Shown here piece after piece: positions 8,703 to 48,853 of a DNA stretch of 56,987 bases. How positions within the stretch are numbered: position 1 is the first letter of the stretch; each line of letters opens with the position of its first letter. The position numbers and the translations under genes were made by a program. Origin of the DNA: a virus; the IMG/VR virus record IMGVR_UViG_3300021964_000079, positions 1-56,987 of that record. One strand, given 5' to 3'. The notes under the pieces are model-generated. The model made no database searches. It was given only the letters and a program-made list of their open reading frames with translations, and was not told the DNA's origin.

Positions 8703-8801
8703 TTGGAAATATTCACAGGAAAATATTACTTAGGGAAGTTATTGCATTTATAGATTAGGTATAGCGTTCCAGTTCTAACCCCCCCTTAGTCATATGAGAG
8801 G

Positions 8802-9036
8802 TAGAGAGAGGGGGAATCGAACCCCCTGTTAGGTAGTGTGAGCTACCTTGATATTGTCTCACAAACGATCCTGGCTTCATCCATCCCACTGTCAGCTTCA
8901 GAGCTCTAGCGCTCTTCAGTAGTCAGTCCAACAGGATATATATCATTCACTCGTCCAGACTCTCCTCAATAAAAGAGAGAGTGTCAGTCCACCTAGCACT
9001 TCAGCAGTATACGTAAGACCATTCGGGACACTCTCT
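8802..9036 (-). ncRNA. tRNA-Ser(GCU)-like RNA interrupted by about 147 nt (candidate)
   Basis: The 3' part has a perfect T-arm (GGGGG-TTCGATT-CCCCC, 8810-8826), an acceptor strand TCTCTCT plus discriminator A (8802-8809) and a class II variable-arm hairpin (AGGTAG/CTACCT, 8831-8848). The 5' part starts AGAGAGT (9030-9036), which pairs 6 of 7 with that acceptor, followed by a Ser-type D-arm-like CCCGAATGGTCTTAC and a loop CTGCT. Joining CTGCT (to 9003) with AA (from 8855) would give the loop CTGCTAA, anticodon GCU. The anticodon stem would pair at only three of five positions. No CCA is encoded. Inserted sequence has its own 10-bp inverted repeat. It could instead be a decayed tRNA. Confidence 0.4.
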
Positions 9037-27422: not shown

Positions 27423-27496
27423 TGGTGCTGGTAGAAAGAATCGAACTCTCAATTAAGGTTTACAAAACCCTCGTTATACCGTTTAACTATACCAGC
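27423..27496 (-). tRNA. tRNA-Thr (anticodon UGU)
   Basis: Acceptor GCTGGTA/TACCAGC, D-arm, anticodon arm AGGGT-TTTGTAA-ACCTT (anticodon TGT), T-arm with TTCGATT, and encoded 3' ACCA. The 74-nt cloverleaf is complete. It sits between thyX and a small coiled-coil gene on the same strand. Confidence 0.93.
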
Positions 27497-29547: not shown

Positions 29548-29647
29548 AGTATAATTCATCCTTTCAAGATGATAAGTTAGACAATATTTGTCAGACACAA
29601 AGTGTTTCGTTTGAATTTCACAAACTCATCAGTGACATTATATACAG

Positions 29648-29676
29648 AGTATAACAGGTTATTATATATTTGTCAA
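29648..29676 (-). promoter_or_regulatory. Sigma70-like early promoter
   Basis: TTGACA (29671-29676), 17 bases, TATACT (29648-29653). Confidence 0.78.
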
Positions 29677-29864
29677 TACTCTTTTTGAATAAAGTGGTGG
29701 GTATTCTGTTGCAAGGAACCCACCGAACCCCGAAAGATTATGCTGCTAGAGCGTAATCTCCATAGTTTGCATTATCGTTTGCATTTAGAAATTTGACCAA
29801 TAACGCAGTCATCCGACAATTCTCCACTCATCTATTCCAGCCTGTCGATCCTATTTCGCCCCCA

Positions 29865-29963
29865 TCAAAAAGAGATTTTACCATAACCAAGTAACAAGGC
29901 TATGATACCAGAAATGAGAATAATATCAGCGCATACACTCCAAAGAATATATAACTTAAACAT
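29865..29963 (-). CDS. Micro-ORF, 32-aa membrane peptide, inside permuted tmRNA
   Basis: Reads MFKLYILWSVCADIILISGI... with one membrane helix, ending two bases before the coding-piece GGGGGCG. It lies wholly in the intervening segment that would be removed on maturation. No Shine-Dalgarno. May be chance. Confidence 0.3.
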   Translation of the reverse strand: MFKLYILWSVCADIILISGIIALLLGYGKISF

Positions 29964-30027
29964 AAATACCGATATTTTTTTTACTAGAGGATTCTTCATC
30001 TGAATCTCCTGATATCATCTCTTTCAT
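29956..30027 (-). CDS. Micro-ORF, 23-aa acidic peptide, inside permuted tmRNA
   Basis: Reads MKEMISGDSDEESSSKKNIG... and starts behind AAAAGGAGATTGTC, a strong Shine-Dalgarno placed directly after the tmRNA CCA. The next micro-ORF overlaps its end. Whether it is translated is unknown. Confidence 0.35.
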   Translation of the reverse strand: MKEMISGDSDEESSSKKNIGIYV

Positions 30028-30110
30028 GACAATCTCCTTTTGGTGGAGGCGGGGGGTATCGCACCCCCGTCCAGTTCTGTATTCAATTCGTATCATCAAA
30101 TTGTATCTTA

Positions 30111-30139
30111 TATATAACACACGGGGATTAATAAGTCAA
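30111..30139 (-). promoter_or_regulatory. Sigma70-like promoter for tmRNA
   Basis: TTGACT (30134-30139), 17 bases, TATATA (30111-30116); predicted start near 30104, matching the 5' end of the acceptor piece. Confidence 0.65.
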
Positions 30140-30502
30140 GTGCTTTATTGGCATTCCTTTAATTTTTTTTGGTAATGAAAGTAAAGTTCCACCCACTCCC
30201 TGACTTAAAATACACGCCCACTTACCCTGTATTTCTAATACTGTGGCTGTACCCGTGGTTTCATTTATATAGGACATGACAACACTTTTCTGTTCTGCAT
30301 CTACCCAAGCGGAAATTGATTCTTCACCAAACTCTTTGACCTTATCCATAACTTCCTTTACAGGACCGCATAACACAGGTTTCTGTGTTACAATCCAATT
30401 TGGAAATTCTTTTAAATCTTGTGGTTCTGGAATTGTTTCTTGCGCTAAGGTTTGGCTACCCATTAACAGAAACACTGCCAGTACTGCTACTAGAGGTTTC
30501 AT
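30128..30502 (-). CDS. Exported small protein (124 aa)
   Basis: Signal peptide MKPLVAVLAVFLLMGSQTLA with cleavage before QE, then a 100-residue domain with two Cys (PVLCGPVKEV, KWACILSQG) that may form a disulfide. Periplasmic. Start chosen at 30502 because the longer frame adds a polar segment before the signal peptide. It overlaps the end of the nuclease gene by 47 bases. Function unknown. Confidence 0.7.
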   Translation of the reverse strand: MKPLVAVLAVFLLMGSQTLAQETIPEPQDLKEFPNWIVTQKPVLCGPVKEVMDKVKEFGEESISAWVDAEQKSVVMSYINETTGTATVLEIQGKWACILSQGVGGTLLSLPKKIKGMPIKHLTY

Positions 30503-31172
30503 TCTGTTTGCTCCATTCTGCAACGGTTTCCACTAGAGCATCAAGGTATTCGTGTTTGTCTCTTACAAACTCTTGGACAGTTCCATCCTCTGTTACTACT
30601 AAAATCACTACCTGAGAGATTTCTATGCCAGTTCTTTCTCCGAACATCTCTGCATACGCAGAACCCTGAATGTAATAACTTTCGTTCCATTCGTCTTTAC
30701 GCTCTTTGGTTGATGTCTTGAAGTCGATAATCGACGGTACACCATTGTACTCTGCAATACAATCAACCCTTCCCGCTACCTTATATTTATCACTATAGAG
30801 TCCTGCTTCTTGTGCATATATGTTATCAATATTGCATAATGCTTTGTCTGCAAGTTGACCAAAAAGACAATATGGCAGGAAATTCTTCTTGTGTTTCGCC
30901 CATTCCTTGGGGAAATTGGTCGGCATGTTGTTGAGGTAATCTTCACACATGTGGTGAACCTTAGTGCCACGATTCGCAGCAGTTCGTGCTACATGGTTGG
31001 CAACTTCATTACCTACCCTCTTACGCCACTCCATCAGTCCCTTCTTATTACGGACTGATAGAACTGTTGTGATTGATGGATACTTATTACCCTCTGGTGT
31101 CTCATATAGACGAACACCGTCCTTATTAGTTGCTGTTATGGGTTGCAACTCCACCCCTACATGATTAAACAT
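30456..31172 (-). CDS. PD-(D/E)XK exonuclease (RecB/MGME1-like)
   Basis: A 238-residue protein with the nuclease core VAGRVDCIAEYNGVPSIIDF followed by KTSTKERK: Asp in GRVD, the E/D-x-K pair in IDFKTS, and the preceding helix NRGTKVHHMCEDYL. This pattern is typical of phage RecB-like and mitochondrial MGME1-like exonucleases, which process DNA ends or recycle host DNA. Confidence 0.82.
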   Translation of the reverse strand: MFNHVGVELQPITATNKDGVRLYETPEGNKYPSITTVLSVRNKKGLMEWRKRVGNEVANHVARTAANRGTKVHHMCEDYLNNMPTNFPKEWAKHKKNFLPYCLFGQLADKALCNIDNIYAQEAGLYSDKYKVAGRVDCIAEYNGVPSIIDFKTSTKERKDEWNESYYIQGSAYAEMFGERTGIEISQVVILVVTEDGTVQEFVRDKHEYLDALVETVAEWSKQNETSSSSTGSVSVNG

Positions 31173-31892: not shown

Positions 31893-32248
31893 TTTTCTAT
31901 CCTTATATCATAATCTTCGGGTTCTATGAAAATCTTATTGGTATCCTCATATTTACCGACACCTATTGTTGCCATCCATATTATGAAATCTGCGTCAAAC
32001 TCTCGGCGTGTTTCTTCTGTAGGACAAATGAAGTCTGCAATTGCAACTCCACCAGCCATGACCACCCCATCTGAAAGGTGTTTCATTCTCTGTGATTGTC
32101 GAATACGTCCCTTATCAGAGAAGTCCCAATCATCGTATTTCTCTCTTACTTGATCTGCATTTATCCATATACCAAATAAACTTTTGGCCAGAGGTTCAGC
32201 AAATGTACTCTTACCTGATCCCGGCAGACCCATCACTAAAATCTTCAT
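31781..32248 (-). CDS. APS-kinase-like P-loop kinase
   Basis: A 155-residue protein with Walker A MGLPGSGKST (from residue 6), a DxxR-type INADQVREKYDDWDFSDKGR and VVMAGGVAIADFICPTEETR, as in adenylylsulfate kinases. It would phosphorylate APS to PAPS. Its last 37 codons overlap the nucleotidyltransferase gene in another frame. Adjacent to a sulfotransferase, it may supply its donor. Confidence 0.72.
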   Translation of the reverse strand: MKILVMGLPGSGKSTFAEPLAKSLFGIWINADQVREKYDDWDFSDKGRIRQSQRMKHLSDGVVMAGGVAIADFICPTEETRREFDADFIIWMATIGVGKYEDTNKIFIEPEDYDIRIEKWIDTNQLFKCLDGFNHGIKDTENFSRELTQRLAKLQ

Positions 32249-32838
32249 TATTCTCCAAACTCATAATTATACATTTCGATGTCTTTCTCATACCACTGAT
32301 GAACTTTCATTATATCTGCATCATCATAGTATTCCCAATAAGGTTTATGGTCTGTCTTGTTATAATGCTTATAATTTTGGGCCCAATCGACACATATTTT
32401 TGGAAACAAATATTTAACTTCTTCATCATAATTCTCAAACCGTGCTATGTAATCTACATCAGTTAGATAATCACATTGAGGTGTGTTATGATCATGAATT
32501 AGTCCGTCTTTTCTTAAATTCATATTTAACCATTCTTTAAAAGAAATATCTTCTGGGGGTTTAAATTTTCCCCCATTGTAAAAATAATTTGATAATTCTC
32601 TATCCCAAGGATTTCTTACAAAACCAAATTTGAAATACTCATCCCATTCCAAACCTAATTTTGGAAATACACCTTCTTTTATCCAAGAAGATTCAACATG
32701 AAAAGTTGCTTGTCCATCTCGAATTCTTTGTATAACTTTAGCACCAGAATCATGATGCAACATTTGTTTAAATATAGTCGTTCCACCAGTTTTCTGCACT
32801 TTAATAAAGAGATATTTTTTAGTCGATAATATCGTCAT
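32248..32838 (-). CDS. Sulfotransferase
   Basis: A 196-residue protein with the 5'-phosphosulfate loop LFIKVQKTGGTTIFKQML (about residues 10-27) and the 3'-phosphate motif KFGFVRNPWDRELSNYFYN (about 70-88). This is the Sulfotransfer_2 layout. It moves sulfate from PAPS to an unknown acceptor such as a host or virion glycan. It is coupled to the kinase by TAATG. Confidence 0.85.
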   Translation of the reverse strand: MTILSTKKYLFIKVQKTGGTTIFKQMLHHDSGAKVIQRIRDGQATFHVESSWIKEGVFPKLGLEWDEYFKFGFVRNPWDRELSNYFYNGGKFKPPEDISFKEWLNMNLRKDGLIHDHNTPQCDYLTDVDYIARFENYDEEVKYLFPKICVDWAQNYKHYNKTDHKPYWEYYDDADIMKVHQWYEKDIEMYNYEFGE

Positions 32839-41878: not shown

Positions 41879-42252
41879 CCTCGCCTCATCTTTGCAACTT
41901 CTTCAGCAGACTTCTTGTTTCGTACCGGCACAGCATTGGACTTGTGCATCTGTGCGATACCTATAATCTCAGTGCCAGTATAAACATTCTCTTCTTTCTT
42001 TGACATAGAAGAATTGTAAGTAGGTTTGCAGGACTCTAATTTGGCGCACTCGACAGGACTCGAACCTGTGACCCACGGCTTAGAAGGCCGTTGCTCTGTT
42101 CCAGCTGAGCTACGAGTGCCTATACCCATCTTCTTGAGAAACTTTGCGTGTTGACGCTCTGCCTCTAGGACAGAGGCCGACTTCTTTTTCTGTTTGCGCT
42201 TGCGAGTATTCGTAGTCGAATAATACACAGGCAATAAATGCATACCGCTCAT
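41875..42252 (-). CDS. Conserved phage protein with a tRNA gene embedded in frame
   Basis: The open frame is 125 codons. Residues 4-45 (MHLLPVYYSTTNTRKRKQKK ... HAKFLKKMGIG) and the last 45 (SCKPTYNSSMSKKEENVYTG ... MHKSNAVPVRNKK) look like the two halves of a conserved marine T4-like protein. Between them lie 26 codons that are the tRNA-Arg gene on the same strand, kept in frame without a stop. The start may be the ATG at 42252 or 42243; the ATG at 42006 could make the C-terminal 43 residues alone. Confidence 0.6.
   Translation of the reverse strand: MSGMHLLPVYYSTTNTRKRKQKKKSASVLEAERQHAKFLKKMGIGTRSSAGTEQRPSKPWVTGSSPVECAKLESCKPTYNSSMSKKEENVYTGTEIIGIAQMHKSNAVPVRNKKSAEEVAKMRRG
42042..42119 (-). 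tRNA. tRNA-Arg (anticodon UCU)
   Basis: Acceptor GCACTCG/CGAGTGC, D-arm with AGCTCAGCTGGAACAGAGC, anticodon arm ACGGC-CTTCTAA-GCCGT (anticodon TCT), T-arm with GTTCGAGTC and encoded GCCA. The 78-nt gene is complete. It reads AGA codons. It lies inside the ORF at 41875-42252. Confidence 0.95.
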
Positions 42253-46905: not shown

Positions 46906-47563
46906 TGTGATTTGACCCCACTGTTGTCACATCTACAGCTCCATCATAGGCACCACCCTGTGTAATTGAAAATGTGCTAGATGAACCAGTGTGATGAAGA
47001 GTTGTGTCTTGATCAGCAGCACCAGTGTGTGTTGATGTAATCGTATTACTCCCGCCGATAGCTGTGATGTTCGTCACCTTCTTGTCACCAACACCCATTG
47101 TAGCAGTGCTGTTTTCATTTACTGTAATAGTATTGCTATCGCCTGTCGCAGTGATATCAATATCAGCATCATCGGTTGCAGCATTATTACCCACGTTCAC
47201 TGTTGTTGTATTTGAACTGCCAGTGATTGTTTGGATAATACTATTGTCATCAGATGCAGAGTTAGCACCAACAGATACGTTAGACGTATTACTATTACCT
47301 GTCTGATTTATTGTCAATGTCTGTGTTGCACCGACAACAGATGCAGCAATGGTGTTAGTGTTACCAACCTGATCAATGTCTAACGTCTGGCTGTCACCTG
47401 TTAGAGTAACATCAGTTGTATCATCACCGAACTTATTGGTCTGTCCATCTTGATTGATGTTTGCAGTCAGGCTCGCACCAGACTGTGTTATGTATACGTC
47501 GCTCGCATAACTCACACTACACATAACAAAGTAAGCGAGTATTGTAAGTATGCTCGTTCTCAT
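46880..47563 (-). CDS. Curlin-repeat exported protein 1 (CsgA/CsgB-like)
   Basis: A 227-residue protein with signal peptide (MRTSILTILAYFVMCSVSYA) and about eight curlin-type repeats: VYITQSGASLTANINQDGQT, QTLDIDQVGNTNTIAASVVG, QTLTINQTGNSNTSNVSVGA. Alternating Q/N-G-N and Ser/Thr spacing fits amyloid-forming curlins. ATGA coupling to CsgG upstream supports secretion through that pore. Confidence 0.82.
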   Translation of the reverse strand: MRTSILTILAYFVMCSVSYASDVYITQSGASLTANINQDGQTNKFGDDTTDVTLTGDSQTLDIDQVGNTNTIAASVVGATQTLTINQTGNSNTSNVSVGANSASDDNSIIQTITGSSNTTTVNVGNNAATDDADIDITATGDSNTITVNENSTATMGVGDKKVTNITAIGGSNTITSTHTGAADQDTTLHHTGSSSTFSITQGGAYDGAVDVTTVGSNHSVTITMDD

Positions 47564-48348
47564 TTGATTTTCTCCTCTTTAAATTTCCATAATTCTTTTT
47601 GCTCACCTTCCTTGATTATTTCAATAACTGCTTGTTCAATTGCTTTTCTCACAGCGTAGGTAGTGGACTCATTGTCCGTTATCCCTGCTTCAGTCTCCAG
47701 CAATTTAGTTCCCATATCTAAAAATTTAAACACTGTGGCAGATAACTTTGTACTCAGAATAGTTTTCTGAGAACTGACTGCCAAAAGTACTTCACCTGTC
47801 TGTACAGATATTAATCGTAAAGCCACTGTTACCATGTCCTTACGATATTCATCAGATACACCAATACCCAGATATCTTACCCCCATACCACCTGTACTTG
47901 TATTGGTGTCATACCCAACTATGCCCCCTGTCAGCAATACTCCCGCAAACAATAGGGGTTTAATCTTTTCTGCCGTATCTCCGTCATAGTTCTTTCTTGT
48001 GTTTCGTATAATCTGTCTTTCTTTTAACAGATTTTCCAGTTCCATTCTTTCTATGACTTGAAACCACTCGCCCTTACCTGCTTTCTTTAGGGCTTGGATT
48101 AACCATATATCTCCACCTTGTGTCACTGCACTACTTAGTAATGCAAGTGATGAGCTGGATTTTCTTTGTCCTGTTACGTCATTGAACTTATACACCGCAA
48201 CCGGCACCTTACGTTCAGGTGGTGTTATGTTGTATAGTTCATCTACTAACGGCACAGTACTAGGTACAGGAGCATCCTGTGGTTGGATGCTCGCACAACT
48301 AGAAAGTAAAGTCGCCAACAGGAACAGTGATAACAGTCGTACTACCAT
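47560..48348 (-). CDS. csgG: Curli secretion pore CsgG
   Basis: A 262-residue lipoprotein. Signal MVVRLLSLFLLATLLSSC with lipobox Cys18, then the CsgG order: VPVAVYKFNDVTGQRKSSSS, FQVIERMELENLLKERQIIR, GGIVGYDTNTSTGGMGVRYL (the transmembrane strands), VALRLISVQTGEVLLAVSSQ and a helical C-terminus. Side by side it follows E. coli CsgG throughout (277 aa). It forms a nine-subunit outer-membrane pore. Upstream ATGs exist at 48354 and 48360. Confidence 0.93.
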   Translation of the reverse strand: MVVRLLSLFLLATLLSSCASIQPQDAPVPSTVPLVDELYNITPPERKVPVAVYKFNDVTGQRKSSSSLALLSSAVTQGGDIWLIQALKKAGKGEWFQVIERMELENLLKERQIIRNTRKNYDGDTAEKIKPLLFAGVLLTGGIVGYDTNTSTGGMGVRYLGIGVSDEYRKDMVTVALRLISVQTGEVLLAVSSQKTILSTKLSATVFKFLDMGTKLLETEAGITDNESTTYAVRKAIEQAVIEIIKEGEQKELWKFKEEKIK

Positions 48349-48853
48349 TTGCATCCACAATCGTTAAATCTACGGTTTCGCTACTTTTGACATAACTAAT
48401 TGTTGTACCCTCAAAAGTAACTGTACCGGAAGTTGAAGCCTCTTCTCCAAACATACTATCTACTAGTTGTTTTGAAAGTTGTGCATATATTCTTGATTCC
48501 ACATTCTTCATAAATTTAGAAAGGTTTGTATTTGCAGCATCTCGTATTGCTTGACGTTCAGCAGCTTCTTTCTTTTCTCTAATTGCTTGCGACCTTGAAA
48601 ACTCTTGGTTCTCAATGGTCAAAACATGTGCGCTGTATCCCTGACCACTAAATGCGGGTGACTTCCATGTGTGAGTAAGTTCCCCAGCATGTGAAGGTGA
48701 GAGGAATGCACATCCGAAAGCAAAGAGCGCACCGACAAATGCCCCTATCAAGAATGATTTGAGCATATCACTATCGTGCCAGATTGCCTGATTTTTAAAG
48801 AATACATCAGAAGCATGATGACCTGTTTTTAGACTGAAAAAGTTCCTACTCAT
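48299..48853 (-). CDS. csgF: Curli assembly factor CsgF
   Basis: A 184-residue protein. Residues 30-55 form a signal/anchor (MLKSFLIGAFVGALFAFGCA ... SHAG), followed by the CsgF N-terminal pore-plug motif (WKSPAFSGQGYSAHVLTIEN), a charged helix and the C-terminal beta part (GTTISYVKSSETVDLTIVDA). Start at 48853 overlaps the upstream stop; the ATG at 48766 would give a cleaner signal peptide. It overlaps csgG by about 50 bases. Confidence 0.85.
   Translation of the reverse strand: MSRNFFSLKTGHHASDVFFKNQAIWHDSDMLKSFLIGAFVGALFAFGCAFLSPSHAGELTHTWKSPAFSGQGYSAHVLTIENQEFSRSQAIREKKEAAERQAIRDAANTNLSKFMKNVESRIYAQLSKQLVDSMFGEEASTSGTVTFEGTTISYVKSSETVDLTIVDANGSTTVITVPVGDFTF

Follow-up and report, generated by a model that had tools for sequence, protein, structure and literature searches.

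A conserved small reading frame within the intervening segment of a permuted phage tmRNA

The tmRNA locus and its phage

The window, i.e. the whole stretch of 56,987 nucleotides analysed here, carries on its minus strand a complete permuted two-piece tmRNA (30104..29738) that is recognized by ARAGORN and by two Rfam models (Table 1). ARAGORN calls a tmRNA* at 29647-30133 (minus strand) with the tag ANDNANYGDYALAA*. In a covariance-model search, as proposed by an earlier sequence-only reading of this DNA, RF04321 (tmRNA_permuted) matches 30104..29738 on the minus strand with 116.9 bits (model positions 1-213 of 213), and RF01849 (alpha_tmRNA) matches over its full length with 115.1 bits (positions 1-355 of 355), both above the gathering threshold. 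The Rfam models used are those without pseudoknots, and at the pseudoknot regions sequence conservation alone was matched. In transcript order the acceptor piece is located 5' of the coding piece; the acceptor stem pairs in 7 of 7 positions, and the CCA is encoded. The sequence-only reading had recognized the permuted two-piece form, the 7 of 7 pairing with one G-U and a spacing of about 180 bases between the acceptor strands, all of which hold. The spacing is 177 nt, the G-U is the pair G3-U70, and all parts lie on the minus strand, which that reading had left unstated. G3-U70 is the identity pair of alanyl-tRNA synthetase.

Acceptor pairing and tag frame are also maintained in relatives, as had been asked of a genuine tmRNA. 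All 58 distinct viral tRNA-like domains have G3-U70, and compensatory variation in the T-stem extends to all four Watson-Crick types at its two outer pairs. The tag frame ending in ALAA plus stop is retained, with LAA at the end of 163 of 173 viral tags. The permuted tmRNA of the window is real and not a chance arrangement. The contig contains no SmpB gene, so that SmpB of the host must be assumed. The promoter-like site 5' of the tmRNA is absent from the list of a consensus scan, since it ends in a base other than T. It is overlapped by the 3' end of a 131-aa ORF (30128-30523, minus strand) that has a signal-peptide-like start and no family match.

Table 1. Features of the tmRNA locus, in positions of the window.
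Feature	Position	Strand	Basis
Promoter-like TTGACT-17-TATATA just 5' of the tmRNA (putative)	30111..30139	-	by eye; inference
Acceptor piece (5' flank, T-arm, acceptor 3' strand, ACCA)	30041..30104	-	RF04321, RF01849, ARAGORN
T-arm within the acceptor piece	30072..30051 region	-	
Acceptor 3' strand CGCCTCC and ACCA	30051..30041	-	
Intervening segment, 177 nt, absent from the mature tmRNA	29864..30040	-	between the two pieces
AAAGGAGATT, ribosome-binding-site-like, directly 3' of CCA; also 5' strand of the end-to-end helix	30031..30040	-	
Leader ORF1, 23 aa, MKEMISGDSDEESSSKKNIGIYV; start at -28 from ORF2, conserved frame offset	29956..30027	-	
ORF2 (family A), 44 aa, MKNPLVKKISVFMFKLYILWSVCADIILISGIIALLLGYGKISF, one hydrophobic helix, stop TGA	29865..29999	-	dN/dS, frame controls, 290 viral relatives
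AATCTCTTTT, 3' strand of the end-to-end helix = last ORF2 codons (..KISF)	29868..29877	-	
Coding piece, from GGGGGCG (start 29863) to the tag stop	29738..29863	-	Rfam, ARAGORN
Tag reading frame ANDNANYGDYALAA and stop TAA	29738..29782	-	ARAGORN
Coding-piece 3' tail (second pseudoknot region of the alpha-type model)	29693..29737	-	RF01849, matched to its last position

The carrier, an IMG/VR virus record, is the contig of a T4-like marine phage of the Melnitz/pelagimyophage type. Its T4-type genes encode gp32, gp59, a replicative helicase, a primase, a ribonucleotide reductase and a baseplate lysozyme, and the gene order PDDEXK nuclease, tmRNA, gp59 is that of phage Melnitz. The contig also encodes a homologue of the curli pore CsgG (47560-48360, minus strand; PF03783, E 4.5e-57), a gene already described from Melnitz and SAR11 myophages, and a protein matching the galactose-3-O-sulfotransferase family (32248-32838, minus strand; phrog_3347, E 5e-15), which is unusual for a phage. 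Genes for tRNA-Thr (27423-27496) and tRNA-Arg (42042-42119) are backed by both ARAGORN and Rfam; a tRNA-His call at 8800-8890 (minus strand), made by ARAGORN without Rfam support, is probably a false positive.

The proposal that the tmRNA is host-derived or host-matched is not established. The tag ANDNANYGDYALAA is confined to viral loci (the window, L245, L264, L272 and L291): the suggested comparison with host-type genomes returned it in 0 of 107 tmRNAs of alphaproteobacterial contigs. Across the coding piece, identity is 86-100% with the closest viral loci and no more than 73% with the 150 bacterial loci compared, among which the likely hosts, SAR11 and OM43, may be too sparsely represented. 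The median length of intervening segments delimited by a 20-nt pattern is 77.5 nt in viruses (n = 116, 48 of them at least 90 nt long), compared to 34 nt in alphaproteobacterial loci (n = 102, same pattern), none of which is filled by an ORF. We considered long ORF-bearing segments as a bacterial trait; they are absent from these 102 pattern-matched loci. The span from acceptor to tag is 367 nt in the window, versus less than 290 nt for almost all, and 351 nt at most, among the matches listed for 385 alphaproteobacterial genomes. For Pelagibacter, a separation of 75-125 bp between the two tmRNA pieces has been described (PMC2704228), which exceeds our bacterial median; probably SAR11 is under-sampled here, or the published count takes in flanking parts.

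A reading frame inside the intervening segment

The sequence-only reading had treated the gap between the two pieces as empty. It contains a conserved protein gene, ORF2, whose stop codon TGA ends one base before the GGGGGCG of the coding piece. The predicted product is a single-pass membrane protein with a hydropathy maximum of 2.43. A family alignment search yielded 290 viral relatives, denoted family A. Among 51 distinct sequences that were examined, 34 are located between an acceptor and a coding piece according to a strict pattern, several more are truncated by contig ends or escape this pattern, and 10 are free-standing, with neither tmRNA piece adjoining. For nested copies dN/dS is approximately 0.14, computed from 15 distinct sequences of the 44-aa form and 24 of the 38-aa form, and the signal is gone in shifted reading frames. 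Judged by this substitution pattern, ORF2 is protein-coding and under strong purifying selection. A chance ORF was considered and is ruled out by the frame-specific dN/dS of 0.14 together with the filling of segments by ORFs above the level of shuffled sequences (see below).

ORF2 is preceded by the short leader ORF1, which starts with RTG in 36 of 36 aligned nested family A copies (copies that were chosen for RTG at this position). The leader is found at -28 with the same frame offset in nested as well as free-standing copies, and this fixed distance suggests translational coupling to ORF2. The nested proteins of the segment families have no significant match to Pfam or PHROGs families. One free-standing family A protein gives a borderline match to the TciB-like membrane protein family phrog_1470 (E 0.0077, with 22 hydrophobic residues aligned); the ORF2 protein of the window has no match. 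Families A and B (the latter described below) have no tblastn match in cultured phages.

The two ends of the intervening segment pair with each other in a single register. In 76 distinct long segments, pairs 2-10 of this helix are formed in 84-97%, with many compensatory combinations. The helix occurs just as often in short viral segments and in those of bacteria, segments without an ORF included, and is therefore a general feature of the precursor. Its candidacy as a switch peculiar to ORF-bearing segments is thereby weakened. In family A the ribosome-binding-site-like AAAGGAGATT supplies the 5' strand of the helix and the final codons of the ORF supply the 3' strand, so that RNA fold and protein code are met jointly. 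The predicted fold of the window precursor is 5.4 standard deviations below that of shuffled sequences.

Cargo of the segment in related phages

The same syntenic locus, flanked by genes for a PDDEXK nuclease, gp59 and often an HTH_39 protein, harbors different cargo in different phages. Family A occupies segments of 159, 177, 183 and 192 nt; other fillings are family C (phage Melnitz) and family D (L096), and in L313 a segment of 260 nt contains D followed by A. The empty form of the slot is about 30 nt long and has no gene. In L253 (3133-3900) a segment of approximately 0.6 kb encodes an HNH-type endonuclease (PHROG endonuclease, E 7e-20), likewise in L254 and L255. Family A of L253 is relocated to just upstream of the tmRNA and has its own promoter-like site, and the acceptor stem, read from the sequence, is compensated (GGGGGTG/CACCTCC). 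ARAGORN overlooks this tmRNA. In L303 (1476-1840) and L306 (3057-3368) family A is found directly upstream of a tmRNA with a short segment rather than inside, an arrangement that may correspond to a stage before or after nesting.

ORF-filled segments are not restricted to family A. After removal of near-duplicates, 23 of 40 long viral segments (at least 90 nt) have an ATG ORF over at least 60% of their length; dinucleotide shuffles give a mean of 3.6 and a maximum of 8. The ORFs cluster into about 20 groups. Family B (ICINNYS..HARL) has a dN/dS of 0.122. Family C (KIPKYLSG; dN/dS = 0.20) is nested in 9 of 9 distinct sequences, cultured phage Melnitz among them, and is the one family among A, B and C that is anchored in an isolate. 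Family E (VKGHL..NNEEAYLHEDGFEEAY) is nested in 13 of 44 distinct sequences and not nested in 31; its dN/dS of 0.33 is a weaker signal obtained from four nested sequences. Permuted tmRNAs with structured-looking segments of about 90-110 nt and no convincing ORF occur in cultured Ruegeria, Rhodobacter and Erythrobacter phages (L123, L428, L429, L431 and L432), whose records do not annotate the tmRNA.

The boundary between segment and coding piece, TGAT|GGGGGCGAAATAG, provides stop codons in two frames. For family A the frame is closed by the TGA just ahead of the coding piece. In families B and E, most of the nested ORFs continue into the coding piece and end in ..GAK or similar with a stop TAG at +13, i.e. 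they finish on codons and a stop of the mature tmRNA (GGG GCG AAA TAG); the family C ORF of Melnitz reaches +42. Families B and E have no clear mutual similarity except for this shared end. The C-terminal residues of their free-standing homologues differ from those of the nested copies, hence the nested copies took their C-terminus from the tmRNA.

Interpretation and relation to known systems

We consider it likely that the precursor of this functional-looking tmRNA is at the same time an mRNA, and that the segment cut out of it is a cargo slot in which small phage genes can be exchanged. A single transcript would be the precursor of the permuted two-piece tmRNA. RNase P of the host would cut at the 5' end of the coding piece and a 3'-end nuclease would act after the CCA; processing by RNase P and tRNase Z has been proposed for permuted tmRNA (PMC3985003), and we infer it for the window. 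The two mature pieces would then join via the acceptor stem and be charged with alanine, and the charged tmRNA, together with host SmpB, would release stalled ribosomes and append the tag to their products. The discarded segment would be translated into the 44-aa membrane protein from the ribosome-binding sites just 3' of the CCA, and its contents would be exchangeable provided that the pairing of the segment ends persists. The nested protein would most likely be an early membrane-acting host-takeover protein.

The locus might instead be no more than a usual permuted phage tmRNA whose spacer is longer, with an ORF that is a chance frame or a by-product of RNA structure. Some long segments indeed lack an ORF and seem structured, and the end helix could be conserved for RNA reasons; however, the frame-specific dN/dS of family A, the occurrence of homologous genes outside of tmRNAs and a degree of ORF filling far in excess of shuffles render this very improbable. 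Another reading, in which the tRNA-like halves are mere processing signals that release small messages and trans-translation has been lost, draws on the many phages whose segment is filled by protein genes. It is hardly credible given the retained tag frame with its LAA ends, the covarying tRNA-like domain with an invariant G3-U70, and phages that retain the tmRNA without any cargo.

Closer to the cargo slot are two readings that concern the relationship between cargo and tmRNA. The segment may be a merely tolerated landing place, as compact genomes fill unconstrained gaps, with cargo and tmRNA functionally unlinked. This is a sub-case of our preferred explanation and differs from it in coupling alone; we lean slightly towards it. 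It accounts for cargo that is varied and exchangeable at one locus, for the free-standing occurrence of the same families and for an HNH-type endonuclease in one segment. Against it stand the conserved helix built from the ribosome-binding site and last codons of family A, as well as stop codons at fixed positions relative to the coding piece, although neither is proof of regulation. Alternatively, processing and translation might exclude each other: the end helix, in which AAAGGAGATT pairs with the end of the family A ORF, would hide the ribosome-binding site, and a translating ribosome would open the helix and block maturation. In families B and E, whose stop codon is reached 13 nt into the coding piece, RNase P would remove that codon and leave a non-stop mRNA, a substrate of the same tmRNA. 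Both parts taken together are conceivable but unlikely, since the helix also occurs in bacteria and in segments without an ORF. An extension to a control circuit is rather unlikely; here each precursor would yield either a small host-takeover protein or mature tmRNA, and the B or E message, left without a stop by processing, would be resolved by the newly made tmRNA. If true, the output of the cargo would report on the capacity for RNase P processing and ribosome rescue during infection.

Permuted tmRNAs of Methylophilales phage Melnitz EXVC044M and Pelagibacter phage Mosig were published in 2022 (PMC9004378), hence the tmRNA of the window alone is not new in kind. In the same study two-piece forms account for 53 of 133 unique phage tmRNAs, 50 of the 53 from aquatic phages (PMC9004378). 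Melnitz, Mosig and the phage of the window are all T4-like marine phages with an alpha-type permuted tmRNA, and with Melnitz the window also shares the PDDEXK nuclease upstream, gp59 downstream and an ORF in the segment, where the Melnitz record shows a tmRNA feature and nothing else. The two differ in cargo (family C in Melnitz, A in the window) and in a glutamine riboswitch (RF01739, L122:1688-1736) that directly follows the tmRNA of Melnitz and was not found at that of the window. The papers examined make no mention of a gene in the segment. With alphaproteobacterial permuted tmRNAs (RF01849/RF04321) the window shares gene order, the G3-U70 acceptor stem, the tag type AND..ALAA and the helix of the segment ends; it differs in its 177-nt segment with a conserved gene, as opposed to the short segments of the bacterial loci, none ORF-filled.

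The sole second gene that the tmRNA database paper mentions within the intervening sequence of a permuted tmRNA is a tRNA-Ala gene in one nominally archaeal sequence (PMC11915505). That case involves one RNA gene, whereas several protein families in many phages are involved here. Intron-type tmRNA genes contain group I introns with homing endonuclease genes (PMC11915505) and thus likewise have protein genes in the removed part of a tmRNA transcript. In contrast to these, the segment is no intron, would be removed by end processing and holds mostly small proteins, apart from the HNH-type endonuclease of L253. In the literature searched, no earlier account places a protein gene between the two pieces of a tmRNA, though older key papers may hold a remark.

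The annotation of tmRNA features, for example in the Melnitz record, may conceal genes. Should the nested genes be translated, then what is known only as the precursor of a non-coding RNA would be an mRNA as well, and a segment presumed to be waste would be a reusable gene slot of marine phages. Maturation of the tmRNA could then be tied to how small phage proteins are expressed, which may be one reason that phages retain permuted tmRNAs.
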